This document shows, piece after piece, positions 1-19,523 of a stretch of DNA of 42,868 nt. Under the pieces are notes generated by a model, which ran no database searches, was not told the DNA's origin, and saw only the letters and a program-made list of their open reading frames with translations. Both the position numbers and the translations under genes were made by a program. The DNA lies in the NCBI GenBank assembly GCA_028875225.1, contig JAPPFB010000010.1:1-42868 (forward strand), given 5' to 3'. Source of the stretch: Chloroflexota bacterium (GTDB lineage Bacteria > Chloroflexota > Dehalococcoidia > Bin125). How positions within the stretch are numbered: position 1 is the first letter of the stretch; each line of letters starts with the position of its first letter.

Positions 1-184
1 ACAAGCATCCGTTGTCTGTCACATAGTTGCATATTGATCGATTCCGTCAAGAACGTTTGCCTGCACAGCGATCACCGCGGCGGATGACCGGCCGCGGCCG
101 GTCTGCGGGCGGCGGTGGTCTAGGCTGACCAACAGGCGCCGGGTTCCGGGTGCACGGCGACGACGGGCATGAAGGGTTCAGCGG

Positions 185-616
185 GTGACTGACCGGTCAG
201 GACTGCCCGATCTCACGTTGCTTCGGTTGCGGCGCGCGGGCGTGGCCGCGGAGCGGCGGCTGGAGGACGGCCTGGCCGGGCTGGGGGTCTCGCTGGACGA
301 ACTGCGGATCCTGGCCGTGTCCGCTGCATCTCCGGGCGTCAGCGCCGTCGAGATCGCGGCGGTGGTGGAGCTGCCGGCGCCCGCCGTCAGCCGCCTGGTT
401 CAGGGGTTGGCCCAGCGCGGGCTGCTGATCCGCCGCCGCTCGCGCCTCGACCGGCGCACGGTGATGCTCCGGTGCAGCCCCGCGGCGCTAACCCTGATCG
501 AGGCATGCCTTCCCGCCCTCGAGGCGAGCGAAGCGGAGTTCCTCGAGCCGCTCAGCGGAGGGCAGCGGCGCGCCCTCCAGGGCGGCCTGGAACGGCTGCG
601 CCGCGCCCAATCCTGA
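185..616 (+). CDS. MarR-family transcriptional regulator
   Basis: This 143-residue protein has the size and layout of a MarR winged-helix repressor. A helix-turn-helix lies at about residues 50-75 (VSAVEIAAVVELPAPAVSRL) and is followed by an Arg-rich wing with the RSRLDRR signature near residue 90, the usual R-x-D-x-R family mark. Such proteins act as dimers in the cytoplasm on promoters of stress or efflux genes. The GTG start is preceded by an AAGGG-type ribosome binding site about 10 nt upstream. A TAGGCT hexamer at 121-126 could be the -10 box. The gene converges with the methyltransferase gene 45 bp downstream, so the two are not an operon and the target is unknown. Confidence 0.8.
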   Translation: MTDRSGLPDLTLLRLRRAGVAAERRLEDGLAGLGVSLDELRILAVSAASPGVSAVEIAAVVELPAPAVSRLVQGLAQRGLLIRRRSRLDRRTVMLRCSPAALTLIEACLPALEASEAEFLEPLSGGQRRALQGGLERLRRAQS

Positions 617-661
617 GCCAATCCCGAACTGAGGCGATCGCTCGATGGCAGCGGGGCCGGC

Positions 662-1489
662 TCAACGCTTCGCGGCAACGGCCTCGCCGAAGGCGATGGC
701 GGCGACCGCGCCGGGGCTCTGCCGCCAGGTCTCGAGCTGTTCCGAGAGCTGATGCAGCTCACGCGCCTCGCCGACCCCGTATTGCTGCGCCGGTCCCGAG
801 ATCTCAGGACTCAAGAACCAACCCGCGACCAGTTGGAAGAACGCCTCCAACTCTGGCGCTTCGGCGAAGGTCTCGAAGGTCATCGACACGCGCGCGTCGG
901 TGTACCCGCATTCGAGCAAGCGGGCGAAAAGCTCCTTGCCCATCTGCGGATGACCATCGTCCGCGGCCAGCAGGTCGGCGAAGATCTGCCAGCCACGGTC
1001 AAGGATCGGATGCCCCGGGTAGACGAAGGAGCTGTCGATGATCATCTCACGGCAGAACAGCAGCCCGCCGGGCCTCAGCACCCGCTGTGCTTCCCCGAGG
1101 ACGGCGGCCGGCTCGGGCACGTAGGCCAGCACGTCGCAGCAGCTGACGACGTCGAACGAGCCGTCGTCGAAGGGCAGCTGCGCGCCGTCGGCGACCTCAA
1201 ACGATGCCTCGCCGCAGCCGTGCTCGGCCGCGTTCGCCCGAGCCAGCTCCACCTGCGACGGCTCCATGTCGATGCCCCAGGCCTCGCCCGGCGCCACCGC
1301 CTCGGCCAGGGCCGCCGTCACCTGCCCCGGTCCGCAGCCGATGTCCAACAGGCGCAGGCCGGGCCTGAGCTGGGGCCGCAGAAAGTCGATCGTCCGCTGC
1401 GCCCGCTCCCGGGCCAGGAAGCGCAGGTACTCATCGCCGTAGCCCATCGTGTAGTCGGGAGTGGATCCAGTCTGCAGCTGCTGCGGCAT
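662..1489 (-). CDS. class I SAM-dependent methyltransferase
   Basis: This 275-residue protein is a small-molecule-type methyltransferase. The SAM-binding motif I is LDIGCGPGQ (Asp49 to about Gln56). Acidic loop II follows (GIDMEPSQVELAR), then a motif IV-like segment (FDVVSCCDVLAYVPEP) and the post-motif LRPGGLLFCRE. This order matches the Methyltransf_11/UbiE-like group. The C-terminal 100 residues form a helical cap that probably binds the acceptor, which cannot be named. The ATG start has a clear AAGGAG site about 7 nt upstream. The gene converges with the MarR gene. Confidence 0.8.
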   Translation of the reverse strand: MPQQLQTGSTPDYTMGYGDEYLRFLARERAQRTIDFLRPQLRPGLRLLDIGCGPGQVTAALAEAVAPGEAWGIDMEPSQVELARANAAEHGCGEASFEVADGAQLPFDDGSFDVVSCCDVLAYVPEPAAVLGEAQRVLRPGGLLFCREMIIDSSFVYPGHPILDRGWQIFADLLAADDGHPQMGKELFARLLECGYTDARVSMTFETFAEAPELEAFFQLVAGWFLSPEISGPAQQYGVGEARELHQLSEQLETWRQSPGAVAAIAFGEAVAAKR

Positions 1490-2197
1490 GGCTCGCTCCT
1501 TGGTTGCTCACGCATCCGTCCGTCGCCTCACTGCCGACGATCGAGGATCGCCCATCGCTCGTTCCAAGTTCCAATAGGCAGCGTACAACAGGCCAAGCTG
1601 TCCAAATCGACCAGAGGCATGCCGTGTCGGCGTCTCAGGATGGCGCTGGGGAATCGAGCAAGGGGCGCGGTGACCGGTTCGCTTTGGCATTCTGGGACTG
1701 CCCAGCTCAAGACTCGCGCTCCAGCCTCTGCTGCGTCTCGCTCCGCCCTGCCTCTCCCTACTCCAGCGAACGTCGCCTCCCGTATGCCCGTCACCAACTG
1801 CGGGGCGGGCTCTGACCTGGGGGATCGCGCACGCCAGCCGGTAGTGGCATCCTGCCCGCAGCACGATGACGCCGGTCCGCGACATGGGCGGCGATTATGC
1901 GGCCGAGACCACGTTCCGCCGTCGGCCGGCGTCGGCGGCGGCTCATGGCGCCCCAGTCAGAGTGAAGATGCGGGGGATAGCATGGCGCTTCCGACAAACC
2001 TCAATCTGCTCCGTGCCACCGGCAATGCCGCAGCGGCGTCAGTGTCGCGCACGGGTTCGCCAACGGCGCCAACGGCGGCACGCGTGTGCGAGCAGTTTCA
2101 TTGCTCCGCACCAGGCGCGGCGGGAGCGGATCCACGCACAGGTCGGGGCCTGAGCACCGGAGCGGCTCCCGGCCCGATGCGGTGGGGGGCGGCGGAG
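1490..2197. other. about 700 bp with no supported gene
   Basis: The frames here give only arginine-, proline- and serine-rich translations with no recognisable motif, and none has a convincing ribosome binding site. I see no tRNA, CRISPR or clear repeat. It holds the promoter side of the methyltransferase gene and, at its right edge, the start signal of the next gene. Confidence 0.5.
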
Positions 2198-2210
2198 TAG
2201 AGTGAAACGC
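2198..2210 (+). promoter_or_regulatory. candidate leaderless promoter -10 (TAGAGT)
   Basis: TAGAGT at 2198-2203 is followed by exactly 7 nt and then GTG at 2211. The same TAGAGT-N7-start arrangement occurs before the genes at 10965 and 39777. This fits a -10 element that places transcription start on the first base of the start codon. No good -35 is visible. Confidence 0.4.
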
Positions 2211-2726
2211 GTGATGCGCAACGTGATCGAGCGGCTGGCGGGTCGGCGGGTAGTGGGGGCGGCCCTGCTCGGCCTCGTCGCGAGCGTGGCGGGGTTGGCC
2301 TGGCGCGGGCAGCGGCTGGAGGGGATGGAACTGCTCGACACGCGCGGCTGGTACACGCCCGACGATGCGGCGGCGCTGTTCGGCGCGCTCGAGCGGCTCG
2401 ACGGCAGCGCGGCGGCGGTCTACGCGATCACCGCGCTGACCATCGACATGCTGTTTCCGGTTTGCTACGGCCTGCTCTTCGCGCTCGTGCTGCGGCGGCT
2501 GTTGCCCGGACCGCCGCTGTTTCTCGTGCCGCTCGCGCTGGCGCTCTCGGACGTGCTGGAGAACGCGACGGTCGCGGCGCTGGCGCTGAGCTTCGACGGC
2601 GAGCCGAGCTCATGGGCCTGGCTGGCGGCGGCCTGCACCCTGGTCAAGACCGTGCTGCTCGCCGCGACGCTCGCGGCAGTCGCCGCGGGCGCCGCGCTGC
2701 GGCTGTCGGAGCGGCTCCGCCGCTGA
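2211..2726 (+). CDS. small multi-pass membrane protein of unknown function
   Basis: This protein of about 171 residues has four likely membrane helices: an N-terminal one (VVGAALLGLVASVAGLAW), one around ITALTIDMLFPVCYGLLFAL, one around LFLVPLALALSDVLENA and a last one (TLVKTVLLAATLAAVAAGAA). Between helices 1 and 2 is an exposed segment containing TRGWYTPDDAA. I do not recognise a family. A GTG at 2202 is also in frame, but it overlaps a TAGAGT hexamer that looks like a -10 box, so I prefer the GTG at 2211 (the ATG at 2214 is also possible). The gene ends 11 bp before the convergent hydrolase. Confidence 0.65.
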   Translation: MMRNVIERLAGRRVVGAALLGLVASVAGLAWRGQRLEGMELLDTRGWYTPDDAAALFGALERLDGSAAAVYAITALTIDMLFPVCYGLLFALVLRRLLPGPPLFLVPLALALSDVLENATVAALALSFDGEPSSWAWLAAACTLVKTVLLAATLAAVAAGAALRLSERLRR

Positions 2727-2737
2727 GGCCGGTAGCC

Positions 2738-3496
2738 CTAGCTGTTGGCCGCGATGAAGGCCTGGACGCGCTGCCAGGCGTCGTTGCAGGCGTCCGCGTG
2801 CTCGTCATAGGCGCGGTCGAAGAAGCTGTGCGGCGCGCCGTCGTAGCTGACGATCTCGTGGGCGACGCCGCGCTCGTTCAGAGCGGCGTCCCAGCTGACG
2901 GCCTCCGCGGCGGGCACCAGCTCGTCCGCCGCGCCCATCAGGCCGAGGATGGGGCAGTCGATCTCGGCGATCCGGTCCAGCGGCGAGCCGCCGCCGTTCA
3001 GCCCGGGGCTGCTGGGGTGGCCGTAGAAACCGATCGAGCCGGCCAGTCCGTGCCCGGCGGCCGCCTGCATCCAGCTGTTGCTGCCGCCGAAGCAGAAGCC
3101 GACGGTGAAGATGGCGCGCTCGGCGTCGGCGGCCCGGAGGGCGGCAGCCGCCGCAGCGGTGTCGGCGGCGATGCCGTCCGGCGAGGTCTGCTGCACGTGC
3201 GGCCAGAAATCGAACTCGGCGTCGCGCTTCGAGACGCCGGCGGTGCGGCCGAAGTAATCGATCGCGACCGCGTCGATGCCGATCTCGGCGAAGCGGATGG
3301 CGAGCTCCTCGTAGAAGCGGAACAGGCCGCGCACATCGGGCAGGATCACTACGCCGGGCCCGGTGGGCGACTCGGCGCGGGCATGGAAGGCGGCGAACTC
3401 GGCGCCGTCGGCGGCGATCAGGGTCAGGTCTTCGACGTCCACGGCCGCGCCGGCGATCGGAGTGATCGCGGGCAGGGCCTCGTAGCGGTGGCACAT
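2738..3496 (-). CDS. dienelactone hydrolase family protein
   Basis: This 252-residue alpha/beta hydrolase has the dienelactone hydrolase layout with a cysteine nucleophile. Cys135 sits in the elbow G-F-C-F-G-G, the acid is Asp191 in GAADELVP and the base is His223 in APHSFF. Family members hydrolyse lactones or esters in the cytoplasm, classically in chlorocatechol breakdown, but the substrate here is unknown. The frame stays open to 3538. I chose the ATG at 3496 because an AGAGAGG site lies about 8 nt upstream and the extra 14 residues are not family-like. The next gene is divergent, 363 bp away. Confidence 0.82.
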   Translation of the reverse strand: MCHRYEALPAITPIAGAAVDVEDLTLIAADGAEFAAFHARAESPTGPGVVILPDVRGLFRFYEELAIRFAEIGIDAVAIDYFGRTAGVSKRDAEFDFWPHVQQTSPDGIAADTAAAAAALRAADAERAIFTVGFCFGGSNSWMQAAAGHGLAGSIGFYGHPSSPGLNGGGSPLDRIAEIDCPILGLMGAADELVPAAEAVSWDAALNERGVAHEIVSYDGAPHSFFDRAYDEHADACNDAWQRVQAFIAANS

Positions 3497-3859
3497 GGGA
3501 TCGGTCCTCTCTGCATCGCGGTTCTGCCACCCGAGCATACTCGCGCGCTCGCGCGGGCCCAGGAACGGTGCGCCAGCGCGGTCGCAAGTCCCAGCTCACG
3601 GCTCCCAGCTCACGGCCAGGTGGACGAAGCTGAGGCAGGGCAGCGCGAGCTCGTCGCCGCGCGTGTGCGGCAGTCGAGGGCGATCCGCTCACAGCGTTCG
3701 TTCGTCCGTTGCATCGGCGGCCGGTCGCCCGTCGGCCGCCTCGACTCTGGACGAGAGCCGCGAACGCGCGTGCGCCGCCGGGTGCGGCCACTATCCTGAC
3801 GCGAGCCGGCGCCGCCGGCGCGTTGAGTTCAGTGACGCACGCAGGACAAGGAGCGATCG

Positions 3860-4786
3860 ATGCCCCCCACCCCCGAAACCCAGGGACTGCTGGCCATGCT
3901 GGAGGAGGCCGGCGGCCCGGATATCTCCGAACAGACGCCGGAGGAGGCGCGCGCGGCGATCGCCAACTTCGCCGCCATGCAGGCCGGCGCCCCCGAGCCG
4001 GCACGCGTCGAGGACCGTAGCCTGCCCGGGCCGGCCGGCGAGATCCCGGTCCGCGTCTACGCGTCGGCGGGCAATGACCTGCCGGTCGTGATCTACTACC
4101 ACGGCGGCGGCTGGGTGCTGGGCGACATCGAATCGCACGACGGCGCCTGCAAGCAGCTGCTGGCCGAGCTCGGCCAGGCGGTCGTGGTCTCGGTCGACTA
4201 TCGCCTCGCGCCCGAGCACCGCTACCCCGCCGCGGCCGACGACTGCTACGCCGCCGCTGTCTGGGTCGCCGAGCACGGGGCGGAGATCGGCGCCGACGGC
4301 TCGCGCCTGGCCGTCTGCGGCGACTCGGCCGGCGGCAACCTCGCGGCCGTGGTCTCGCTGATGGCGCGCGACCGCGGCGGCCCCGCGATCGCCGCCCAGG
4401 TGCTGCACGTGCCCGTCACCGATCATTACTTCGACACCCAGTCGTACCTCGACAACGCCGAGGGCTATCTGCTCACCCGCGCCTCGATGATCTGGTTCTG
4501 GGGGCACTACCTGGCCTCGGCGGAGGACGGCCAGCAGGCCTACGCCTCGCCGCTCAAGGCTGCCGATCTGTCGGGTCTGCCGCCGGCGCTGGTACAGACG
4601 GCTGAGTACGACCCGTTGCGCGACGAGGGCGAAGCCTACGCCGCCGCGCTCGAGGCGGCCGGCGGTGAGGTCGCCATGCATCGCTACGACGGCGTCGTGC
4701 ACGACCCCTTCATGATGTTCGCCCTGATCCCCACGGGGGTCGCCTGCCTCCAGGAAGCCGCCGCCTTCATCACCGAGCGCATCTAG
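3860..4786 (+). CDS. alpha/beta hydrolase, hormone-sensitive-lipase (HSL) family esterase
   Basis: This 308-residue protein is a typical HSL-type carboxylesterase. The oxyanion-hole motif is HGGGW (81-85) and the nucleophile is Ser156 in GDSAGGN. Asp251 (EYDPLRDEG) and His281 (VVHDPF) complete the triad. The N-terminal 45 residues form the helical cap of this family. It probably hydrolyses short-chain acyl esters in the cytoplasm. An AAGGAG ribosome binding site lies 7 nt before the ATG. The 363-bp divergent gap to the preceding gene contains a TATCCT hexamer near 3791 that may be the -10 box, and nothing else recognisable. Confidence 0.85.
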   Translation: MPPTPETQGLLAMLEEAGGPDISEQTPEEARAAIANFAAMQAGAPEPARVEDRSLPGPAGEIPVRVYASAGNDLPVVIYYHGGGWVLGDIESHDGACKQLLAELGQAVVVSVDYRLAPEHRYPAAADDCYAAAVWVAEHGAEIGADGSRLAVCGDSAGGNLAAVVSLMARDRGGPAIAAQVLHVPVTDHYFDTQSYLDNAEGYLLTRASMIWFWGHYLASAEDGQQAYASPLKAADLSGLPPALVQTAEYDPLRDEGEAYAAALEAAGGEVAMHRYDGVVHDPFMMFALIPTGVACLQEAAAFITERI

Positions 4787-4825
4787 CCGGGCCGCCGCCA
4801 GTCTCCGGATCCGCGCGTCGACCTG

Positions 4826-4831
4826 ATAGGC
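4826..4831 (+). promoter_or_regulatory. candidate -10 box (TAGGCT) of the Calx-beta gene
   Basis: TAGGCT matches the TANNNT pattern seen before other genes here (121, 27042, 32605). It would start transcription near 4839 and leave a leader of about 75 nt with a GGGGGAG ribosome binding site. The assignment rests on this short match only. Confidence 0.25.
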
Positions 4832-4914
4832 TGATGGTCGACGAATTCGACCAGCCTGGGTGTCAGGCTGGCCACATCCGTCTCTAGCGCGGCGCAGTCG
4901 GGGGGAGATGTGCG

Positions 4915-7410
4915 ATGGGTGACGTTCGCCAGCAGAACCCAGGAGAGAGTGTCCCCCCCCCCCGACAGATCAGACGTTCTATTTCCGGTGTGGGCGGCGG
5001 CGCAGTGATCAGTCGCGTTGCGCGCTTGCTGGCGCTGGCGGCGTTGGCCTTGCTGCCGATGTGGCTGGTGGGCGGCGCGGTTGGCCAGGGCATTGGCGTG
5101 CTGACGGTCACGGGCGCCCAGGCGAGCGAGGGCGACGCGCTGCGCTTCCGGGTGAACCTGAGTCCCGCGCTGACGTCCGACGTGGTGGTCGAGCTGGAGA
5201 CCAGGATCGACGGCCGGACCGGCGCCGCGGCGGCGACGCCGGATTCGGATTTCCCGTCCAGCTCGGCTCGGCGCCTGACGATCCACGCCGGCTCGACGGG
5301 CGCCTGGTTCACGGTGCCCACGGTCGAGGATGGGCTCTACGAGGGCGATGAGACGTTCGAGCTGCGGATCGCCGATGTCGCCGAGGGTCTCGCGCAGATC
5401 GGCGCGGCGGACCGCGCGATCGGCACGATCGTCGAGGACGACCCGATGCCGCAGGTCAGCCTGCATCAGTCGGCGTCCGGCGTCATCGTGGACAACGCTC
5501 AGGGCGTGGACGACGCCGAGTTGACCCTCGAGGGCGGCTCCGCCTCGGAGCCGGCCGAGATCGTCTACCGCGTCTACCTGTCGTCGCCGAGCGGCCTCGA
5601 CACCACCGTGCCCTACACCCTGAGCGGCACCGCCACCGCTGACCTCGATTACACGGACCCCGCCGTGAAGCAGCTGGTCATTCCCGCCGGCGAACTCTCG
5701 GGCGTGATCTCGATTACCACCTTGCCCGACACGCTCGGCGAAGACCACGAGACGCTGATCGTCACCCTGGGAGCAGCGACCAACGCGACCGTCGCCTCCG
5801 GCGCTGGCGAGGCGACCGGTCGCATCTTCGACGACGACCAGGCGAAGCACATCGTCCTGTCGCTGACGCCGCATCGCGTGCCGGAGTCGGTGAGCACGGA
5901 GATGACCTACACGCTGAGCGCATCGTTGGGCGGCGGCGCGACGGCCGACTCCGCCGTCCTGATCGAGTCACGGGTCGGTGGCCTGCTGATCGTCGGCGGC
6001 GGACACACCGCCACGCACGGCGCCGATTTCGGCCTGCGCGACGCCGTCGAGGGCAAAATCGGCCTGAACATCACCATCCCGGCCGGCCAGAACAGCGGCT
6101 CCAATACGTTCAACGGCACGATCACGAATGACACGCTTGATGAGTTTGACGAGGCGATCGGCTTCGGCCACGACATCAACCGGGTCGCCAACACCGGCGA
6201 GCTCTGGGGCACACACAACGGCTACAGCTTCTTCTATCCGCGGCTGACGATCATCGACAACGACGGCGCCCACGTGCCGACGCTGTCGGTCGCCGACGCC
6301 GCGGCCGTCCAGGAAGGCAACGACGCGTCGGTGACCACCGACATGCACTTTGCGGTCAGCCTCTCCGCCGCCTCAGGCAAGGACGTGACCGTCTGGTACG
6401 CACTGGGCGGCACCGCGACGGCCGGCGATGATTACGACACGCCGCCGCTCTCGCTGACGATTGAGGCCGGATCAACATCGGGCCGCGTCACGCTCCCGGT
6501 GCGCGGCGACAGGGCAGACGAGGGCTCCAGCGAGACCGTTGTGCTGACCCTGTTGGGCGCCGACCACGCAGACCTGGTCCAGGGCGGCACAGCGGCGGAG
6601 AAACGCGCGCTCGATCTCGTCGGCGATTGGGCCTGGCTCAGGCCGGGCCACCTGGCTGCCTTGCTAGGCGTCGGCCGGCGCCGGCTGACGCAGCTGCTCG
6701 CACGACTGGACGACCTGGGCCTCGTCACAAGAGTCCCGCGAGCGGGCGCGCCCCGGCTCACGCTCTCCGACCGCGGTCTCGCCTACCTGGCCCGCCGCGA
6801 CCGGACCTCGGTTGGGATCGCGCGCAAGCGCTGGAGCCCTGAACCGCGCGGGTCGGGCGACGCGTTCGACTGGCGCAACGTCTCAGGGATCCGCTCGCGC
6901 CAGCTGCTGCGCAACCTGGAGCACACCGAGTCGGTGCACTGGTTCAACACGCTGCTGGCCAGCCAGGCGCGCGATCAGGGCAGCCGCCTCGTCCAACTCG
7001 ACCCGCCCCACCGCGCCTCGCGCTACTTCCGCTCCTTTGAGCGGACGCGTTCGATCCAGCCCGACGCCTACGCGCTCCTGGAGACGCCCTCGGGCGAGCA
7101 GGCGTTGTTCCTCGAATGGGAGCGGCGCGCCGTGCGGCCGGCCACGATGGCGGCCCGGCTGGCACCCTACCTGCGCTACTACGCCACCAGCCGTCCGCTC
7201 GAGGACCACGGGCTCCTGCCCCGCGTGCTGGTCGTGTTCGAGGACAAACTGGCCGCCGACCACTTCCTCCGCATCGCCGCAGACGCCGTCGCCCGAGCCG
7301 AGGTGCCCCTGCCGCTGCTGGTCTCGGATCGCCTGAGGCTCGAACAGCACGGTCCGCTGGGCCGCGCCTGGCGCTCTGTTGAGCACCGGGCGCCGCGCGG
7401 CCTGGACTGA
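4915..7410 (+). CDS. chimeric gene: Calx-beta surface protein fused to the C-terminal half of a replication-relaxation protein
   Basis: One uninterrupted frame of 831 codons joins two unrelated parts. Residues 31-60 are a hydrophobic export signal. About residues 60-555 are four Calx-beta-type repeats with the usual EGD, GTATAG-D-Y and DDD signatures, and the first three end in EDDP, DDDQ or DNDG. The fourth stops just before its terminal GTI-x-DDD strand. From about codon 560 (nt 6590) the protein becomes the winged-helix and C-terminal region of a replication-relaxation protein. It aligns almost without gaps to the last 250 residues of the protein at 34245-35858 (shared LAALLGVG, RLTLS-RGL, FDWRN, RQLLRNL, LDPP-RASRYF, RSIQPDA, FLEWERRA-RP, LAPYLRYY). 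The start has a GGGGGAG site. An 11-C run at 4953-4963 precedes the signal peptide. The product is probably non-functional as a DNA protein. Confidence 0.8.
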   Translation: MGDVRQQNPGESVPPPRQIRRSISGVGGGAVISRVARLLALAALALLPMWLVGGAVGQGIGVLTVTGAQASEGDALRFRVNLSPALTSDVVVELETRIDGRTGAAAATPDSDFPSSSARRLTIHAGSTGAWFTVPTVEDGLYEGDETFELRIADVAEGLAQIGAADRAIGTIVEDDPMPQVSLHQSASGVIVDNAQGVDDAELTLEGGSASEPAEIVYRVYLSSPSGLDTTVPYTLSGTATADLDYTDPAVKQLVIPAGELSGVISITTLPDTLGEDHETLIVTLGAATNATVASGAGEATGRIFDDDQAKHIVLSLTPHRVPESVSTEMTYTLSASLGGGATADSAVLIESRVGGLLIVGGGHTATHGADFGLRDAVEGKIGLNITIPAGQNSGSNTFNGTITNDTLDEFDEAIGFGHDINRVANTGELWGTHNGYSFFYPRLTIIDNDGAHVPTLSVADAAAVQEGNDASVTTDMHFAVSLSAASGKDVTVWYALGGTATAGDDYDTPPLSLTIEAGSTSGRVTLPVRGDRADEGSSETVVLTLLGADHADLVQGGTAAEKRALDLVGDWAWLRPGHLAALLGVGRRRLTQLLARLDDLGLVTRVPRAGAPRLTLSDRGLAYLARRDRTSVGIARKRWSPEPRGSGDAFDWRNVSGIRSRQLLRNLEHTESVHWFNTLLASQARDQGSRLVQLDPPHRASRYFRSFERTRSIQPDAYALLETPSGEQALFLEWERRAVRPATMAARLAPYLRYYATSRPLEDHGLLPRVLVVFEDKLAADHFLRIAADAVARAEVPLPLLVSDRLRLEQHGPLGRAWRSVEHRAPRGLD

Positions 7411-7431
7411 GGCCGCTTCAAGTCGGAGTTG

Positions 7432-7797
7432 TCAGGCCGCCCGCCTGGTGTCCTGGGAGCCATCTCTCGCCTCGCCGCCTCCGCACAACCCCGCCCAGAC
7501 ATCCTCCGCGAACAGCCGCGCCTGGCGCTCGTCCGCCTCACCCTCGTCCGTCCCGCTCAGCAAGCAGTCCAACAGCTCACGCTCCGTGGCGAACTCCACG
7601 ATCGCCAGCATGTGCGCCGCGTCCGGGCGGGTCCCGACCCGCCAGCGGTAGAGCGAGCGCACACCGACGCCCAGTTCCCGCGCCAGCCGCCGCCAGGTCA
7701 GACCCGACGCCGCCCGCAGGCGCTCCAGGCGCTGCGGAAAGTCGTCGGGAAACTGGGCTCCGTTGGGCCGGTAGGTGGTTGTCCTGAGTTGGTTCAT
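7432..7797 (-). CDS. small helix-turn-helix protein (paralogue of the adjacent gene)
   Basis: This 121-residue protein has a Cro/C1-like helix-turn-helix at about residues 15-70 (QRLERLRAASGLTWRRLARE, then LGV--RSLYRWRVG-RP). The region matches the upstream neighbour position by position (DF-QRL, GLTW, LA-LGV, R-L-RWR-G). It overlaps that neighbour by 4 bp (ATGA) and is the last gene of a three-gene operon. The C-terminal 40 residues are acidic and unrecognised. It probably binds DNA, perhaps its own promoter. It converges with the replication-relaxation piece, which may come from the same element. Confidence 0.65.
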   Translation of the reverse strand: MNQLRTTTYRPNGAQFPDDFPQRLERLRAASGLTWRRLARELGVGVRSLYRWRVGTRPDAAHMLAIVEFATERELLDCLLSGTDEGEADERQARLFAEDVWAGLCGGGEARDGSQDTRRAA

Positions 7798-8090
7798 CGC
7801 GAGCGCTCATCCCGCCGGGCCGCGCAGGGGTCGTCGCCCAGCAGTTCGTTGAGCCCGCCGGGCAACTGCGCCGCCAGCCGGATCAGCGAGAGCATCGAGC
7901 CGCCCGAGGGGCAGGACCCGCGCCGCCAGCGCAGCAGCTGGCGGTCGTCCACGCCCAGCGCTTCGGCCATCTCTTCCCAGGTCAGGCCGGCGCGCCGTTT
8001 GATCCCGGTCAGCCGCTGGCCGAAATCCCTTGGCAGATGGGCCTCGCCTGGTGCGAACTCCAGTCGTCTCCTCACCCGTCTGCCGTTCAT
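7794..8090 (-). CDS. small helix-turn-helix protein (tandem paralogue)
   Basis: This 98-residue protein has a helix-turn-helix at about residues 22-70 (RLTGIKRRAGLTWEEMAEAL, GVDDRQLLRWRRG). It is a tandem duplicate of the following gene, overlaps it by 4 bp and overlaps the preceding 62-codon gene by 4 bp, so translation is probably coupled. It is likely a transcriptional regulator of an integrated element. Confidence 0.65.
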   Translation of the reverse strand: MNGRRVRRRLEFAPGEAHLPRDFGQRLTGIKRRAGLTWEEMAEALGVDDRQLLRWRRGSCPSGGSMLSLIRLAAQLPGGLNELLGDDPCAARRDERSR

Positions 8091-8275
8091 CGCTCGATCG
8101 CTCCCTGGGCGCTGCCGCCTGGGTCGGCGCTCGCGCTCTCGGGCTCAGCCTGCGCTGCTGCGGCCTCGGCCGCCTGCCGGGCCAGGTGGCGCCGCGCAAT
8201 CATTCGCGCGACGATCCGCAACCCGGCCCGCAGCGTTTGCCGCTCGTCCTCCGTCATCTCCCGCATACGCATCAC
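8087..8275 (-). CDS. small helical protein, first gene of the HTH operon
   Basis: This 62-residue product is basic and helical in its first half (MTEDERQTLRAGLRIVARMI) and Ala/Glu/Ser-rich at the end. It has no recognised domain. The case for it being real is the ATGA overlap with the next gene and the promoter about 100 bp upstream. The start is uncertain because GTG, ATG and a further ATG lie within 10 codons. A longer alternative frame starting at 8339 exists but ends in a low-complexity tail. Confidence 0.45.
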   Translation of the reverse strand: MMRMREMTEDERQTLRAGLRIVARMIARRHLARQAAEAAAAQAEPESASADPGGSAQGAIER

Positions 8276-8350
8276 GTCCGTCTCTCATGTCAACGGGAAT
8301 CTCGATCGGATCGGAGGCCGGCAGGGTCATGGCGCACATCTCTTCTGCGG

Positions 8351-8398
8351 TACAAGTGTTCTGTGTAAGGTCGAAGGTATCGCTGTTCTACAAGTGTT
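8351..8398. repeat. two direct repeats of TACAAGTGTT (operator candidate)
   Basis: The 10-mer TACAAGTGTT occurs at 8351-8360 and 8389-8398 with a 38-bp period. One copy lies between the -35 and -10 of the operon promoter and the other just downstream of the predicted start. The placement is what one expects for autorepression by one of the HTH proteins. Confidence 0.5.
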
Positions 8399-8403
8399 GT
8401 CAA
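8375..8403 (-). promoter_or_regulatory. promoter of the three-gene HTH operon
   Basis: On the minus strand TTGACA (8403-8398, perfect -35) is followed by 17 nt and ATACCT (8380-8375, fair -10). Transcription would start near 8368 and read into the genes at 8275-7432. One copy of the TACAAGTGTT repeat lies inside the spacer, where a bound repressor would block RNA polymerase. Confidence 0.5.
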
Positions 8404-8679
8404 TGACTGTTGGAGTGCATCATTGATGCTGTGGAAGACCTATCTTGGCGATGAGCATATTGGGATGCAAGCCGCGCGGCCCTCCGATCAGAGGCCCACA
8501 CATGCCTCGGCGGATTGGGCAATCGATCGCGATGATCAGGGGCCAATACGACCGCGTACGGAGCGAGGAGGGACCGGCGCGGGGTGTTGTTTGCTACCAG
8601 GGAGGCCGGATGCAATCGGTTCTGAGTCCGCGGTTGGACCACTCTGGCGTGCGGTGGGATTCGGCGCCGGGCGACCGCT

Positions 8680-9468
8680 TCACTCGTTTCCACCCTCGGC
8701 CAGCAGCGGCCGGATCTCGCGTGTGCGCATGTCGAGGAAGGCGTAGTCCTTGAGTAGGTCCACGTCCGGGACCAGCACCTCGCCTCGGAACCGCGTCCCG
8801 GGCCGATCGCCCCACTGGACCACCTGCTCCCGGACCAATTCTGCCAGGCCGACCGACACACCCGAGCGCGACATCGTCGTCAGCCGTGCGATGTCCGTCT
8901 GGCGCACGGCGATCCGGCGATCGACGCCGAAATCGCGGTCCTCCAGCGCCAGCCGTGAGATCAGCGCCGCCGCCACCCGCGAGCCGGGCGCGCCGCTGGT
9001 CGCGAGCGAGACCCAGTAGTAGCGGGCCAGCCGGCGCATCACCAATTCGTGCATTCGCTCGCGCACCGATGGCAGCTCATCCACCACCCGCGCCATCACC
9101 ACCTTCGGAATCCGGACCACGACCGCCTCCGTGATCGCCGAGTAGCTGGCGACCCAGCGCTCCGCGTCCATCAAGAACTCGTGCACCCCGATCAGGAACG
9201 GCGCGGCGAGCTCGGAGTGGGGGGATTGCCAGGGCACTGCCGTGCCGTGTTGCACGAAGACCAGGTCCGCGAACGCCGAACCCGATTGGATGAAGGGTGA
9301 GTCAGCGGAAGGCTCGATGTAGTCCATATCCAGTGCCGGGGCAGAGCCCACGAGCACACGGTCCAAATCCTCGACCGAGACCGACTCGAAGTCGAGGCAC
9401 CGGACGAGCCCCTTGGCGAATCCTGAGACGCGAACGGACATCGACGGCCCCCGGCCTGCGTTGCTCAT
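8680..9468 (-). CDS. Crp/Fnr-family transcriptional regulator
   Basis: This protein of about 262 residues has an N-terminal beta-roll-like region (about 40-130), a long dimerisation helix (about 130-160) and a C-terminal HTH_Crp domain. The recognition segment is VRQTDIARLTTMSRSGVSVG, and a wing follows. The usual phosphate-binding signature (G-E-x-x-x...R-x-A) is not recognisable in the beta-roll, so cyclic nucleotide binding is doubtful. The start is uncertain: the frame opens at 9498 with TTG, ATG occurs at 9468 and 9441, and only the last has a purine-rich stretch upstream. It is separated from the HTH operon by about 270 bp without coding signs. Confidence 0.7.
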   Translation of the reverse strand: MSNAGRGPSMSVRVSGFAKGLVRCLDFESVSVEDLDRVLVGSAPALDMDYIEPSADSPFIQSGSAFADLVFVQHGTAVPWQSPHSELAAPFLIGVHEFLMDAERWVASYSAITEAVVVRIPKVVMARVVDELPSVRERMHELVMRRLARYYWVSLATSGAPGSRVAAALISRLALEDRDFGVDRRIAVRQTDIARLTTMSRSGVSVGLAELVREQVVQWGDRPGTRFRGEVLVPDVDLLKDYAFLDMRTREIRPLLAEGGNE

Positions 9469-9717
9469 GCGTACAGTATTCGATCTGAAGGGCCACAAGG
9501 AGAGCTGTTCTGAACGATGCGATGCGCGTGAACAGGCAAAGACAATGGCGTCTCGACAAGAAGCAGTATCACCGCCTCGTGTAATCTCACACCTTTGTGG
9601 CCTGTTGTGGACATTACAACTAAGGCTGGACTCAGTTTAGATGTGGGGGCGTGGCTCACGCACCGATGAGCTGCCGGAGCCAAGACCTAAGCCGAGCCGT
9701 GGCACGAGCCACTGAGT

Positions 9718-10407
9718 TCAGAAAATCCGCAGGCCCAGCAGGGCAACCGCGCGAACTGTGTCAGGATCGTCGGGCTGGACAGTCTCGAAGCCAAACGAAT
9801 GTAAGGGTGGGGGCGAGTTCGAACCCGGTTCGAAGATGGCCCAGTTTGAGGTCCCATCATCGAGACGCGATCGGTAGTGGATGCCGGCGAAGGGTCTCCT
9901 CTCTTCAGTTCGGCATTCGTAGACGAACCGTGAGACTTCCTGAGTGAATCCTCTGGGAGCGTTGAGTCGAATCGCCGCTGCATCTATGTCTGAAAGCCCG
10001 TAGTGAATGCCCCTACTAGCGAGGTGCGAGCGCAACGAAGCGAGCGAACCAGCGGCGCCGACATCTGCAAAGACTCCATCCACCTCAGCGATGCCCATGA
10101 GTCGGCGCTCGAACCACTCGCGGGGAACCGTCCCGGCAGCGATCGGGTCGTTATCGCCTTCGATCTCGCTAAGCGCCGCGGCTGTCGCTATATCGGGTCG
10201 GAAGGGCGAGAGCGTTTCGATCAATGCTCCGAAACGCGTCGTGCTCGCGTACAAGACGCGATAGGAAGCCTCTGGATCGTCCCAACGATTGCCGAAGGTG
10301 CCGTCTGAACCCGCGTGGCTCCAATCGGGCCACACCCAAGGATCGGGAGTGCGGGCGAGACGAAAGACTGCTCCCGAGGGAGTTACGGTCTCTAGAGCGC
10401 AGGTCAT
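9718..10407 (-). CDS. RES-domain toxin of a RES-Xre toxin-antitoxin pair
   Basis: This 229-residue protein carries the RES domain. Arg41 is in GNRW, Tyr53 in LYAS and Glu64 in ALIETL, followed by the typical R-G-I-HYGLSD and APRGFTQEVSRF segments. Known RES toxins degrade or modify NAD+ and arrest growth. The gene overlaps its upstream partner by 4 bp (ATGA), the normal antitoxin-first order. The domain appears complete, so the toxin is probably active when not neutralised. Confidence 0.8.
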   Translation of the reverse strand: MTCALETVTPSGAVFRLARTPDPWVWPDWSHAGSDGTFGNRWDDPEASYRVLYASTTRFGALIETLSPFRPDIATAAALSEIEGDNDPIAAGTVPREWFERRLMGIAEVDGVFADVGAAGSLASLRSHLASRGIHYGLSDIDAAAIRLNAPRGFTQEVSRFVYECRTEERRPFAGIHYRSRLDDGTSNWAIFEPGSNSPPPLHSFGFETVQPDDPDTVRAVALLGLRIF

Positions 10408-10796
10408 CCAGCGACCAAGAAGGCGCGTGCGGCGGCGATTACATTCGGGCCTACTTCATCAAGATCGCCTTCGCGGAGGAGGTGCAGCGGTGAGCGGTCG
10501 TCAAGCTGTGGATTCAGCCCTTGGAACCAGACTTGCGCGACGGCTGCTGAGTCCGCCGCTGCGATCGGAGCAGCCGCTTGCAAAGCGGTGCGTAGACGCC
10601 GCTGCACGTCGGCACTCGGTTCGCGGGTACCATCCGCCCATTGGTTGACGGCGCGAGTTTCCTTGACCGATCCTAGGTAGGCGCAGAGTTTGACACCAAG
10701 GATGCCTCGTATCTCTTGGACAACCTCCGGAAATGTAGAGCGGGTTGCGCGCGCATGCGCCTCGTAATCCGGCCTGGCGACACTGGTCGTCGTCAT
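10404..10796 (-). CDS. Xre/MbcA/ParS-type antitoxin of the RES toxin
   Basis: This 130-residue protein precedes and overlaps the RES toxin. Residues 20-75 form an Xre-like DNA-binding helical region (LCAYLGSVKETRAVNQWADG). The C-terminus has the toxin-binding pattern of the MbcA/ParS family (WFQGLNPQLDDRSPLHLL, then VIAAARAFL). Family members neutralise the RES toxin by covering its active site and repress the operon. A short GGGGGACC stretch lies just upstream of the ATG. Confidence 0.78.
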   Translation of the reverse strand: MTTTSVARPDYEAHARATRSTFPEVVQEIRGILGVKLCAYLGSVKETRAVNQWADGTREPSADVQRRLRTALQAAAPIAAADSAAVAQVWFQGLNPQLDDRSPLHLLREGDLDEVGPNVIAAARAFLVAG

Positions 10797-10951
10797 TGGT
10801 CCCCCTCAGTCTCACAGAGATCATACCACCTTGAATCCCTTGCCAAACACGCCCGAGATCACGAAGACTCCCTCGGGCGAGATGAACCGACTGGCAGAGG
10901 ACGCGGGGCACCTGAGCCTCACCTAGCGATCCCTCCTTATGTTGCAAGGCG

Positions 10952-10964
10952 TAGAGTAGAGTCA
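10952..10964 (+). promoter_or_regulatory. candidate leaderless promoter -10 (TAGAGT)
   Basis: TAGAGT at 10952-10957, then exactly 7 nt, then GTG at 10965. This matches the spacing at 2198 and 39764 and supports the chosen start of the RDD gene. Confidence 0.4.
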
Positions 10965-11399
10965 GTGAACGATACAGCTAACCTCCAGGAATCGCAGCCC
11001 GAAGCGCTCGCCAGTCCGGGCCGCCGCTTGGCGGGTGCGGTGCTGGAGATCGCCCTGTTCTGTCTGACGCTCGCGATCGGCTGGATCGTCTGGTACCTGA
11101 TCGTCGCGCGCCGGGGGCAGAGCCCGGCCAAGCGGCTGCTGGGCATGCGCGTCGTGCGCGAGGACGGGGCGGCGGCTGACTTGGGCTGGATGCTGGTCCG
11201 CGACCTCGTGGTCCGGGTGGTGGCCCTAGGCGCGCTGGATGCGGCCCTGGTCGGCATTCTGGGGGAGGCGGCGGGCGGGGCGCTGTCCGGCCTCGTGCTC
11301 GTGGCGGCGGCGCTGTGGTGCGTCTGGGACGCACGACACCGCTGCCTCTGGGATCGCGTGGTCGGCACGCGCGTGATCCGAGTCGCCCGCCGAGCCTGA
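10965..11399 (+). CDS. RDD-family membrane protein
   Basis: This protein of about 144 residues matches the RDD family. The RRLAGAVLEIALF start of helix 1 is followed by a second hydrophobic stretch, then the cytoplasmic GQSPAKRLLGMRVVREDG motif, and a C-terminal helix (ALSGLVLVAAALWCVWD) ends in the basic RHRCLWDRVVGTRVI segment. The role of the family is mostly unknown, and some members are linked to sodium or lipid transport. The frame is open further upstream, but the GTG at 10965 sits 7 nt behind a TAGAGT box. It is divergent from the RES-Xre pair. Confidence 0.75.
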   Translation: MNDTANLQESQPEALASPGRRLAGAVLEIALFCLTLAIGWIVWYLIVARRGQSPAKRLLGMRVVREDGAAADLGWMLVRDLVVRVVALGALDAALVGILGEAAGGALSGLVLVAAALWCVWDARHRCLWDRVVGTRVIRVARRA

Positions 11400-11546
11400 A
11401 TGGACGCGAGTGCCGCTAGTCGGTGCTCACAACCGGGCCGGAACGCAGACGTGGAGTTGGCCTCGCTGCTGAGTTGCCTCCGTTCTGGGCTAGCGCGTGA
11501 ACTGTCGGCGGCGTCGCTGCGTTAGCATGGCTCCTAGAGGACGCTG

Positions 11547-12266
11547 ATGACGACCGCCAAACCCCGCGCCGACCGCGGCCGCCTCCGGCTGCCGGACATT
11601 CCCCGGCGAGAGCCCGACGAAGTGACCGCCTTCGACCACTTGCACCAACAGGGCAATGCCCACCACCTGGCCATGCACTTGATTGCCGCGGGTGCCGACC
11701 CCGAGACGCTGCTGGTCACGGCCGACCGCTGGATCGTCCAGCACCTGTCGAGTTTCCGGGAGCGGGCACGCTATCCCGACTTGCTAGTCGCGTTCGACGT
11801 CGCCCCCGAGCTGTACCGGGCCAGCAACGGCTATGTGATCTCAGAACAGGGCAAGCCGCCCGACTTCGTGCTCGAAATCGCATCGGCAAGCACCGGCCGC
11901 GTGGATGTCGGCAAGAAGCAGGACGACTACGAGCGCTTCGGCATCCGCGAGTACTGGCGCTTCGACGAGACGGGCGAGTTCCACGGGGCGCGGTTAGCCG
12001 GCGATCGCCTGGCCTCGGGCCGCTACGAGCCGATTGTCATCGAGGCGCTGCCCGATGGCGATCTCGAGGGCTACAGCGAGGCGCTCAATCTCAAGCTGCG
12101 CTGGCAGGCTGGGAGGCTCGGCTGGCACGAACCGATCAATGGACGTCACATCGCAACGTTCGAGCAAGAACGTGCTCGCGCCGACGCCGAGCATGCCGCA
12201 TACGTCCAATCAGAGCGGCGAGTTCGCGAACTGGAAGCCGAGCTGCGCCGATTACGTCGCGACTGA
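11547..12266 (+). CDS. Uma2-family (DUF820) putative restriction-endonuclease-like protein
   Basis: This 239-residue protein has the Uma2 fold of the PD-(D/E)XK group. The signature order is YPDLLVAFDV, then GKPPDFVLEIASAST, then K-x-DDYERFGIREYWRFD. The acidic residues in PDLLVAF-D and VLEIAS and the following Lys are the likely metal site. The last 45 residues are a coiled coil (EQERARADAEHAAYVQSERR). Uma2 genes are abundant in multicellular bacteria and their role is unsettled. The ATG has GAGGA about 5 nt upstream. The MmeI-like gene starts 36 bp further on and may be co-transcribed. Confidence 0.8.
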   Translation: MTTAKPRADRGRLRLPDIPRREPDEVTAFDHLHQQGNAHHLAMHLIAAGADPETLLVTADRWIVQHLSSFRERARYPDLLVAFDVAPELYRASNGYVISEQGKPPDFVLEIASASTGRVDVGKKQDDYERFGIREYWRFDETGEFHGARLAGDRLASGRYEPIVIEALPDGDLEGYSEALNLKLRWQAGRLGWHEPINGRHIATFEQERARADAEHAAYVQSERRVRELEAELRRLRRD

Positions 12267-12302
12267 CGCACTCGGCTTGACTCGGCTTCGCTCCCGTTGA
12301 TC

Positions 12303-15206
12303 ATGAGTATCCGCGAGTTGTCGGCCGCCCAGTTCGCCGCCAAGTGGCGCGACAACGCAAGGCGTGAGAGCGCCTCGTCGCAAGAACACTTCATCGACCT
12401 CTGCCGACTCCTCGGCGTTCAGACCCCTGCCGAAGCGGATCCGTCAGGCGAGTCCTACACCTTTGAGGCCGGCGCCGAGCGGCTGAGCACCGGTGGTCAG
12501 GGCTGGGCCGACGTCTGGAAGCGCGGACACTTCGGCTGGGAGTACAAGGGCGACCGCGCCGACCTCGCCGCCGCCTACCGACAGCTCCTCGACTACCGCG
12601 AAGACCTGGAAAACCCGCCCGCGCTGGTGGTCAGCGACATGGACCGCATCGAGGTCCACACCAACTTCACCAACACCCGACCCCGCGTCCACGAGATCAC
12701 GCTCGACGACCTCGCCGAAGGCGGCGACCGGACCGCCGAGGCGCTGCGCATCCTCCGCGCCGTGATGATCGAGCCCGAGGATCTGCGCCCGCGCCAGACG
12801 CCGGACGAAGTCACACAGGTTGCCGCATCGCGCTTCGCCGACCTTGCGCGCTCGATGCAGGAGCGCGAATACGAGCCCGAAACCGTCGCGCACTTCCTCA
12901 ATCGCGTCCTCTTTTGCCTGTTCGCCGAGGATGTCGGCTTGCTGCCGCGAGGCCTGATGACCGACCTGATCGAGTCGCGCCAGGACGCCCCCGAGGCGTT
13001 CACCAGCGGGCTCGCCGATCTCTTCCGCCTGATGTCGGACCGCGAAGCCGGGCGATTTTTCGGCACCCAGCGGATTGAGTGGTTCAACGGTGGGCTGTTC
13101 GACGACGATGTGGTGCTGCCGTTTAACCGCGACGAGCTCCGCACCGTCGCCGACGCCTCCAAGCTCGACTGGTCGCAGGTCGAGCCCGCGATCCTCGGCA
13201 CGCTGTTCGAGCGTGGACTCGACCCGGCCAAGCGCGGGCAGCTCGGCGCGCACTACACCGACCGCGAGAAGATCCTGATGGTCGTCGAGCCGGTCGTGAT
13301 GACCCCGCTGCGCCGCGAGTTCGCGGCCTTGCAGGAGCGCGTCGCCGAGCTGATGAAGGACCGCGAGCCCAGCCCCCTCACTCGCGAGGGCCTGCGCCGC
13401 GCCAACCTGCCCAAATGGGAGCGGGACGCCGAGGCCGAGTGGCGCGCCTACATCCAGCGCCTGCGAGACGTGCGCGTGCTCGACCCCGCCTGCGGCTCGG
13501 GCAACTTCCTCTACGTCACCCTGCGCCTGCTCAAGGACCTCGAGCAGCAGGCGATCCGCTGGGGTGCCGAGCGGCTGCGGATCACCGGCGAGTTCCCCCG
13601 CGTCGACCCGCACAACGTGCTCGGCATCGAGATCAACCCCTACGCCAAGGAGCTGGCCGGCGTCGCCATCTGGGTCGGCCACATCCAGTGGATGCTCGAC
13701 CACGGTTACGGCTTCCCCCGAGACCCGGTCCTCCAACCGCTCGACAACATCGAACTCCGCGACGCCATCCTCGCCTACGACGAAGACGGCAACCCTGTCC
13801 CTGCAACCTGGCCAGAGGCCGAGTTCATCGTCGGCAATCCGCCGTTCCTGGGCAAAGCGAAGCTACGCGAGTCTCTGGGAGACGAGTACGTGGAATCTCT
13901 CTATAGGACTTGGGGTTCGCAGGTTCCCAACAGCGCGGATCTGGTCTGCTATTGGCACGAACTCGCCCGGCAAGTCATTGCCGCAGGTTCGTCAAGGCGC
14001 GCGGGGCTGCTGGCGACAAACAGTATCCGAGGCGGCGCGAATCGTCAGACTCTCGAAGCGATCAAGGGCAGTGGTGAGTTGTTTCTTGCATGGTCGGACG
14101 AACCGTGGATTGTTGAAGGAGCTGCAGTTCGTGTCTCGATCGTTGCGCAAGACTCCGGAATGGAGACGGACCGAAGTCTCGATGGTGAGGCAGTGCCATT
14201 CATCAACGCTGATCTGACGACCGGAGCCGACCTAAGCGCTGCACGGTCTCTCGATGAGGGTGCCAAGCTGTGTTTCGAGGGAGTCAAGAAGGCAGGATCA
14301 TTTGATATCACCGGTGAGGCGGCGAGGGCGATGCTGATGCAGCCCTCGAATATCAATGGGCGGCTGAACGCGGACGTCGTCGTTCCTTCCGTCAATGGCT
14401 GGGATGTCACTCGGCGCCCCCGTGATGTGTTCATCATCGACTTTCAGGACATGCCTCACTCTGATGCGGCTGGCTACGAGACACCGTACTCACATGTCGA
14501 AGAGCATGTCTTGCCGTTTCGCGCCAAGAACCGCGAGAAGCGAAGCCGCGAGCTCTGGTGGCAGCATCAGCGCCCTAGACCACTGCTGCGTTCGGCACTG
14601 GAACCCCTTAGCAGATTCATTGTGACCCCGGCAGTCGCTAAGCACCGCGTCTTCGTCTGGCTCTCAAAGCCGCAACTACCTGATCACCAGCTGTACGTGT
14701 TCGCCCGCGACGACGACTACGCGTTTGGCGTCCTCCACTCGCGAGCCCACGAACTCTGGTCGCTGCGGATGGGCACCAGCCTTGAGGACCGCCCGCGATA
14801 CACGCCGACCACGACCTTCGAGACCTTCCCCTGGCCGCTCAGCACGCCCGACGAGGCCCTGACGCCCGAACAGCGGGGGCACCGCGACGCCATCGGCGCC
14901 GCGGCGAAGGAGTTAGACGAGAAGCGCCGGCTCTGGCTCAACCCGCCCGAGTGGGTCCGCGAGGTCCCGGACGTCATCCCCTCTCTGCCCGACCGCCTCC
15001 TGCCCGTCGACGACGAGGCCGCGATGCAACTTGAGAAACGCACCCTGACCAATCTCTACAACCAGCGTCCCACCTGGCTCGACAACCTCCATCGAACCCT
15101 TGACGCCGCCGTCTTCGCCGCCTACGACTGGCCCGCCGAGATCGACGACGAAGACATCCTCGAACGCCTCCTCACCCTCAACTTCGGTCGAATCGCGATC
15201 ATGTGA
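12303..15206 (+). CDS. MmeI-like (type IIL) single-chain restriction-modification enzyme
   Basis: This protein of about 967 residues has the full MmeI layout. The N-terminal nuclease has Asp70-x9-Glu80-x-Lys82 (D then WEYK), the spacing described for MmeI. A helical linker follows (FLNRVLFCLFAEDVGLLP). The methyltransferase has LGAHYT, motif I DPACGSGNFL (Asp394) and motif IV NPPF (Asn512), the latter typical of adenine-N6 methylation. Next come a target-recognition domain (about 520-800) and the conserved end (RYTPTTTFETFPWP). It should methylate one strand of a short asymmetric site and cut some 20 bp away. Third-position GC drops in the recognition domain and recovers near 14700, which suggests a swapped specificity segment. 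A TTG at 12297 is in frame, but the ATG at 12303 is preferred. Confidence 0.85.
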   Translation: MSIRELSAAQFAAKWRDNARRESASSQEHFIDLCRLLGVQTPAEADPSGESYTFEAGAERLSTGGQGWADVWKRGHFGWEYKGDRADLAAAYRQLLDYREDLENPPALVVSDMDRIEVHTNFTNTRPRVHEITLDDLAEGGDRTAEALRILRAVMIEPEDLRPRQTPDEVTQVAASRFADLARSMQEREYEPETVAHFLNRVLFCLFAEDVGLLPRGLMTDLIESRQDAPEAFTSGLADLFRLMSDREAGRFFGTQRIEWFNGGLFDDDVVLPFNRDELRTVADASKLDWSQVEPAILGTLFERGLDPAKRGQLGAHYTDREKILMVVEPVVMTPLRREFAALQERVAELMKDREPSPLTREGLRRANLPKWERDAEAEWRAYIQRLRDVRVLDPACGSGNFLYVTLRLLKDLEQQAIRWGAERLRITGEFPRVDPHNVLGIEINPYAKELAGVAIWVGHIQWMLDHGYGFPRDPVLQPLDNIELRDAILAYDEDGNPVPATWPEAEFIVGNPPFLGKAKLRESLGDEYVESLYRTWGSQVPNSADLVCYWHELARQVIAAGSSRRAGLLATNSIRGGANRQTLEAIKGSGELFLAWSDEPWIVEGAAVRVSIVAQDSGMETDRSLDGEAVPFINADLTTGADLSAARSLDEGAKLCFEGVKKAGSFDITGEAARAMLMQPSNINGRLNADVVVPSVNGWDVTRRPRDVFIIDFQDMPHSDAAGYETPYSHVEEHVLPFRAKNREKRSRELWWQHQRPRPLLRSALEPLSRFIVTPAVAKHRVFVWLSKPQLPDHQLYVFARDDDYAFGVLHSRAHELWSLRMGTSLEDRPRYTPTTTFETFPWPLSTPDEALTPEQRGHRDAIGAAAKELDEKRRLWLNPPEWVREVPDVIPSLPDRLLPVDDEAAMQLEKRTLTNLYNQRPTWLDNLHRTLDAAVFAAYDWPAEIDDEDILERLLTLNFGRIAIM

Positions 15207-15282
15207 TTGCGGTACCGTCGGTACTGAGCCCTGATCGCGATATGCATCCACAGAGGAAATCGGAAGGCGGGCGTGAGGTCGC

Positions 15283-15402
15283 GATGGACATTCGTCTCCA
15301 GCCGCGCGAGCTCGACATTCCCCAGGCCGACCCGTTCGCCAACGATCTCTTGGAACGGCAGCCAGAGATCGCGGCACTGACCAATGTCCTCGCTTCGATG
15401 TC
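15283..15402 (+). pseudogene. N-terminal stub of a KAP-family P-loop NTPase
   Basis: The first 40 codons (MDIRLQPRELDIPQADPF, then ANDLLERQPEIAALTNVL) match the start of KAP P-loop NTPases, which normally continue within about 15 residues into a Walker A loop. Here the frame runs instead into the antisense of an HsdM fragment, so the ATPase core is missing. KAP NTPases are common in phage-defence loci. GTGAGG upstream of the ATG may be the original ribosome binding site. The identification is from family memory. Confidence 0.6.
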
Positions 15403-15552
15403 TTTGGTGTCCGTCAGGATGCGGTCGAACCGTCGGAGCACGGTGAGTGGCAGGATGACCTTGCGGTACTCACTCCGCTTGTAGGGCCCCCGCAGCAGGT
15501 TGCAGATGCCCCAGATGAAGTTCGCCAGTTCGCCATGCGTTCGGGCGTTCAT
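15400..15552 (-). pseudogene. hsdM: N-terminal fragment of a type I restriction methyltransferase (HsdM)
   Basis: About 50 residues starting at the ATG at 15552 are a textbook HsdM start: MNARTHGELANFIWGICNLL, RGPYKRSEYRKVILPLTVL, RRFDRIL. After TDTKDI the frame meets the KAP stub on the opposite strand and continues as antisense of it. The catalytic motifs are absent and no hsdS or hsdR is visible nearby. The gene was cut by recombination at about 15400. Confidence 0.7.
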
Positions 15553-15639
15553 GCCGTTCTCGCCTCCCGTCCTGAAGCAGGGTACGTCAGTGCCCGCGCC
15601 GCCAACCTGAGCGAACGAGCGAGGTCCCACGTCGACTCC

Positions 15640-16147
15640 ATGGACGCCGTGCCGGAGGACCTCTTGCACCACGTCCTCGCCACGCTCGACGAGCCCGCTT
15701 ACGGCGGGGTCAACGCCGGCGGACTGCGCTTGGGCTGGCCCGCATCGCCCTGCCCGACGACCCGGCTGACCTCGCCTAGTCCGCCGTCCGAGGCTACCGC
15801 CCCGCCCGCATTCTCGACACCGACTCCAGCGTCACCAACCTCCTCACCGACTACACCCACATCACCCACATCGCCGTCCCCACCTCAGTTGACGGCCATC
15901 CAATGCGACCTGCCGACTCTCATTGCACCGCCGGCTGGGGCCATTTCGGAGCCAACCAGGCCGTCATGCCCGGTCAGGGCAAGATTATCCGCCACGGAGA
16001 TGTTATCGACGTTTATCTGAACGGATGAACCTATTGGCGAGACATACCAATCGAGGTTCGGACGTGCCGTCTCGGCGGCTACCCGGTCCTCAAGAAGTGG
16101 CTCACCGACCGGGAGTCGAAGGTGCTGGGACGGGCGTTGTTGGTGTG
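15640..16147 (+). pseudogene. degraded C-terminus of a type ISP/large methyltransferase-type restriction enzyme
   Basis: Two frames with a shift near 15735 and internal stops at 15777 (TAG) and about 16027 (TGA) together give a C-terminal end. The pieces are DLLHHVLATLDEPAYGGVNA, GLRLG-ARIALPDDPADLA, GQGKIIRHGDVIDVYLNG, and TYWRDIPIEVRTCRLGGYPV followed by LKKWLTDRESKVLGRALLV. The Y-x-LNG-TYWRD and GGYPVLKKWL-RE-VLGR ends recall the specificity domain of LlaBIII-like type ISP enzymes. No catalytic part remains. The family assignment is from memory of those ends. Confidence 0.5.
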
Positions 16148-16236
16148 AGCGGTCGGCTGGTCCTTCAAGGTGGCGCTTCGTAGGGCGGTGATCCTAGAGG
16201 AATCGTAAGATACACGCTCCACCTGGCCAGAGCTGA

Positions 16237-17472: not shown

Positions 17473-17511
17473 GGTGCACTCAGTCTATCAGTGGACTGCG
17501 TCACGACATTA

Positions 17512-17655
17512 TCAAACTGCCCGGTCGGTCCGCTTTAGCTCGCGGTCCGACTTGCGGGCTTGGGCGAAGTCGTAGGAGTACCGGAGGCAGAGCCAGGTAT
17601 CGGCAGTGCTGCCGAATGTGTGTTCGAAGTGGATTGCCAGGTCGGGGGGTATCGG
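17512..17655 (-). pseudogene. C-terminal remnant of a HigA-type antitoxin
   Basis: About 47 residues (PIPPDLAIHFEHTFGSTADT, then WLCLRYSYDFAQARK) match the second half of HigA antitoxins: helix 4, the FGTSAEFWL-LQ-AYDL-EAR segment and the tail. The upstream codons are proline-rich and unrelated, so the HTH half is gone. No HigB toxin is visible. The break lies close to the truncated recombinase at 17741. Confidence 0.6.
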
Positions 17656-17734
17656 CTCCTGACAGTTGCGGACGGGGGGAGGGGGTGAGGGCGAGGGCGG
17701 CGTCTCAGATGCAGACCGATAACGGATCAAAACG

Positions 17735-17751
17735 GATAAGATGTTTCGAAC
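17735..17751 (+). promoter_or_regulatory. TANNNT-GTTTCGAAC signature before the truncated recombinase
   Basis: TAAGAT is directly followed by GTTTCGAACA. The two full-length recombinase genes have the same arrangement (21008 and 24290). It may be the recombinase promoter with an operator at the start site, or part of an attachment site. Confidence 0.45.
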
Positions 17752-18061: not shown

Positions 18062-18072
18062 ACGGAGCAGAG

Positions 18073-19404: not shown

Positions 19405-19523
19405 CAGTAGGACAGTCCGACACGCATGGCTTGGGTGCCCGGGGCGTCAATTCGTTCCCGCTTCGGCCGCGACGCGATACGGTGAACTCACCGACTGCCG
19501 TAAGTCTATGGAAGGACGCTTTG

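Follow-up and report, generated by a model that had tools for sequence, protein, structure and literature searches.

How did a Calx-beta surface protein and half of a replication-relaxation protein come to share one reading frame, and is the hybrid a protein that the cell uses? The window analyzed here, meaning the whole stretch of 42,868 nucleotides, is the entire contig C9 of a 29-contig, 3.2 Mb genome. On its forward strand, positions 4915-7410 form a stop-free frame of 831 aa, in which residues 1-559 (4915-6592) make up the Calx-beta side and residues 560-831 (6593-7410) the replication-relaxation side. The Calx-beta portion has a signal-like N-terminus followed by repeats, which Pfam profile search recognized in three stretches (PF03160, 60.2 bits against a cut-off of 27). 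The last stretch ends at position 94 of the 119 in the profile, ahead of the terminal strand, leaving the final repeat incomplete. The second portion, a winged helix plus C-terminal domain, reaches its own stop intact and scored 24.6 bits for Replic_Relax (PF13814) at residues 578-771, just below the cut-off of 25.3. An intact paralogue with both halves, encoded on the reverse strand at 34245-35858, scored 27.5 bits and shares 61% identity with the retained half over 255 aa. The sequence-only reading had described one open frame passing between the two families, a Calx-beta repeat cut before its last strand, and a second part matching this intact paralogue; all of this holds. The presence of two unrelated families in one frame is far beyond chance similarity, whereas the in-frame state as such is merely a 1 in 3 chance, the other two phases at the join giving ORFs of 583 and 641 aa. 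A run of 11 C residues was found at 4953-4963, directly past the ATG of the Calx-beta frame; translation may instead begin from the GTG at 4990.

The position of the join was fixed by alignment with the four closest intact copies, which are found on C24, a contig of the same genome, and in the genus mates G004, G003, and G013. The DNA match to C24, G004, and G003 opens at 6593 (6595 in G013) with none before it, a sharp change in the five-copy alignment that places the breakpoint, where Calx-beta DNA gives way to the replication-relaxation gene, at 6592/6593 (+ strand), inside the 6585-6600 estimated earlier. From there to about 9484-9504 the window is 85-88% identical in DNA to the four copies, and the retained half shows 88-91% protein identity to their products. 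The truncated module piece at 6593-9486 (+ strand), comprising the replication-relaxation half, HTH genes, and a Crp-type HTH, is collinear with C24:2492-5401 at 88% DNA identity over 2.9 kb, making C24 a nearer paralogue than the gene at 34245-35858. The latter adjoins a TrwB/TraG-like coupling ATPase recognized by Pfam (35855-38410, - strand). Moreover, ORF-by-ORF analysis of 15 genus and family genomes, this one included, found the first half of the gene in 31 of 31 distinct intact copies; the window copy alone is without it, departing from the two-half Replic_Relax form of the genus, and it alone has Calx-beta in frame. The break falls in the linker that connects the halves, at the start of the winged helix and thus at a domain boundary, which by chance would occur in about one case in twenty, as roughly estimated from linker length. 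Compared by BLASTP, the intact protein's two halves show negligible similarity (E 0.09). A literature search on the replication-relaxation/coupling module returned nothing.

The join had been taken as an element boundary, and it could have arisen if a serine recombinase had used 6593, within the Calx-beta gene, as the site for inserting the island. Two large serine recombinases are indeed encoded in the same island: recombinase A at 21016-22734 (+ strand; Resolvase, Recombinase, and zinc-ribbon domains) and recombinase B, identified by domain search, at 22449-24374 (- strand) and convergent with A. However, the module extends upstream of the equivalent point in all four relatives: each keeps the gene's first half with the coupling ATPase ahead of it (4/4), and they are alike among themselves there. 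Up to the right edge of the module, collinearity spans 22 kb in G004 and G013, and 10.7 kb in G003, where it runs to the contig end. Nor is there an inverted repeat centred on 6592/6593, and the edge that the copies do share lies elsewhere: all five contain CGTACRGTATTCGAT (9475-9504 in the window) and then diverge immediately, near 9486-9490. Because the intact copies continue homologously upstream and share their edge at 9486-9490, the left edge of the 6593-9486 piece is a truncation, not an element end, and its right edge is a natural limit of the variable cargo. The element boundary proposed at the join is thus not borne out, and site-specific integration at 6593 is quite improbable.

Several further features of the island were recorded. 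CGTACRGTATTCGAT, at the cargo edge, is a candidate attachment or recombination site. Recombinases A and B (21016-24374) overlap at their 3' ends, and the pair is kept on a second contig, at C18:35510-38598, with 92% identity over 3.1 kb. The layout of A-arm, recombinase A, recombinase B, and B-arm is shared by G013, where 6 kb separates the two recombinases, while in the window they touch. A transposase element at 29144-31568 (Mu-type C-terminal domain and rve integrase core) is also present in C12 and G013 at 80-88%.

On the left of the join, the Calx-beta gene was found to have no DNA homologue within its own genome or among 14 genus mates, with weak, domain-level protein matches at most, and no match at E 1e-12 in other family genomes. 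A scan of 85,000 species gave no orthologue, the nearest multi-repeat proteins having 24-31% identity to the Calx-beta part. Since an orthologue is absent from all of these sets, the gene is accessory and genome-specific, and the host gene suggested by the sequence-only reading is not supported; the uninterrupted orthologues that were to be compared across the join were likewise not found in related genomes. The missing Calx-beta end was not found elsewhere in the genome, and it would be unrecognizable because there is no orthologue for comparison. Its left neighbors are extra copies of a hydrolase (2738-3538) and an esterase (3860-4786), whose conserved copies sit in two separate places, C17 and C8. 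As these are second copies, the region 1-6592 is also a patchwork. G+C content falls from 70.5% over 1-6592 to 64% over 6593-22700.

In this genome, the chromosomal flank found ahead of the module in G004 and G013 lies on C12, in which the coupling gene is kept and the replication-relaxation gene and the rest of the module are absent. At 88%, the C24 and C9 module copies are nearer to G004 than the C12 flank is (83%), a difference which suggests that these copies moved between species. Other broken copies, disrupted by in-frame stops, were found at G002:C105, G003:C14, and G010:C7. If the missing first half had survived as a reciprocal product, it might be expected in this genome; all first-half matches here lie in copies that are already whole, with none in C12.

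A join seen in one genome may also be an artifact, two unrelated pieces having been merged in metagenome assembly or by a chimeric read. The genome is divided into 29 contigs, one of them being the complete window, and it contains many paralogous module copies. In addition, the first 55 bases of the window (1-55) recur exactly at C23:1-55 on the reverse strand and the last 55 (42814-42868) at C11:32728-32782, as is typical of a short-read assembly graph with k=55; these overlaps likely reflect contig adjacency or branch points in the assembly graph. Against a chimera, the two sides of the join have no sequence in common, and therefore a de Bruijn graph would offer no shared k-mer for passing from one side to the other. 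Among the stretches checked, the 20-mer on the left is unique and that on the right is confined to intact modules, and they are joined neither to each other nor to a common repeat. A graph-made chimera is therefore unlikely and a chimeric read possible; taken together, an assembly error is unlikely, and the join is most likely real DNA.

If the two parts belonged together, the same architecture should recur as a conserved family, which was the finding named in advance as fatal to a one-off fusion. No frame joining Calx-beta to replication-relaxation was found in 20 family and order genomes, no match in a 393-genome class sample joined both parts, and a scan of viral contigs revealed no relative. 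Candidates whose match extended leftward past the join, and several in unusually long frames, proved otherwise on inspection: in none was Calx-beta joined to replication-relaxation, and the close ones had their own first half. On this sampling, a conserved family of this kind is scarcely conceivable. Two frames from class members, L157:1395-5741 and L158:1146-5435, encode 1430-1449 aa with a C-terminal Replic_Relax domain after about 1100 residues that have no Pfam match.

A single genome could still make and keep a working hybrid, secreted or membrane-bound. The open frame, the signal-like N-terminus, and the break at a domain boundary are consistent with such a protein, as is the condition of its second half, in which private codon changes number 9 synonymous and 1 nonsynonymous (48 and 17 in the four intact copies together). 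One nonsynonymous change in ten differs from the roughly 70% expected without constraint (P about 1e-4) but not from the proportion in the intact genes (P 0.43). The retained half was also predicted by AlphaFold to be compact on its own (mean pLDDT 91), and a structure search returned a MarR/SlyA-like winged helix, with no match at E < 0.001. From the codon changes, the lack of decay would indicate either a recent join or continuing constraint, and the data fit both alike. The undecayed second half is the sole positive sign of a secreted hybrid, and a recent break explains it equally well. Moreover, no other genome was found with the hybrid, the final Calx-beta repeat is without its last strand, and a winged-helix, DNA-handling domain would have no evident extracellular role. 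A functional hybrid is accordingly very unlikely. The narrower proposal that the retained half is a self-sufficient domain, under selection since the break and now carried in a membrane- or surface-targeted hybrid, is slightly less credible again.

The hybrid frame is therefore best explained, with good though not full confidence, as a one-off rearrangement scar at the edge of a patchwork island that is in frame by luck. The starting point would have been a replication-relaxation/coupling-ATPase module of the kind that adjoins variable, serine-recombinase-bearing islands in the genus. A break in the linker joining the replication-relaxation halves would have led to loss of the first half, and the cut end would have been joined to the accessory Calx-beta gene at a point that shows neither a repeat nor an att site, staying in frame by the 1 in 3 chance. 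Directly observed are where the break lies, the shortening of the window copy against intact ones, the lack of this architecture in any other genome sampled, and the mosaic neighborhood; the event was presumably illegitimate recombination, by deletion or translocation, and the rearrangement at 6593 appears to be recent. In favor of a scar are the sharp start of similarity at 6593-6595, upstream of which the intact copies resemble each other, the first half kept by every intact copy examined, the mosaic flanks, the other broken copies, the orthologous locus C12 that has the coupling gene and none of the rest of the module, the G+C step, and the lack of a shared or inverted repeat at the join. 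Against it stand the position of the break at a domain boundary, the share of nonsynonymous changes in the retained half (1/10), and the fact that neither the missing first half nor the Calx-beta end was found elsewhere in the genome. The low nonsynonymous share no longer counts against a scar if the break is indeed recent. Of the two outcomes offered by the sequence-only reading, the scar that stayed in frame is thus preferred, the secreted hybrid being very unlikely. Most likely the hybrid is an accidental by-product that serves no function as such.

By itself the hybrid matters little, being another chance fusion at a breakpoint. An automatic label of "secreted replication-relaxation protein" for the frame at 4915-7410 would be wrong, and in several relatives the replication-relaxation/coupling module sits just outside the edge of variable cargo, which is a different matter from marking an element end at 6593.

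Three known systems invite comparison. The second half of the hybrid resembles the Replic_Relax family (PF13814), found beside TrwB/TraG-like coupling ATPases, with 88-91% identity to its four closest intact members, but the first half of that family is gone and Calx-beta sequence stands in its place. Like Calx-beta repeat surface proteins (PF03160), the hybrid has repeats scoring above the cut-off and a signal-like N-terminus; unlike them, it has a cut last repeat, and its identity to the nearest multi-repeat proteins is about 24-32%. The third comparison is with chance fusions at the breakpoints of island deletions or translocations, with which the hybrid shares a sharp breakpoint, a single copy, mosaic flanks, and an in-frame join at 1 in 3 odds, and from which it differs solely in the coincidence of its break with a domain boundary.
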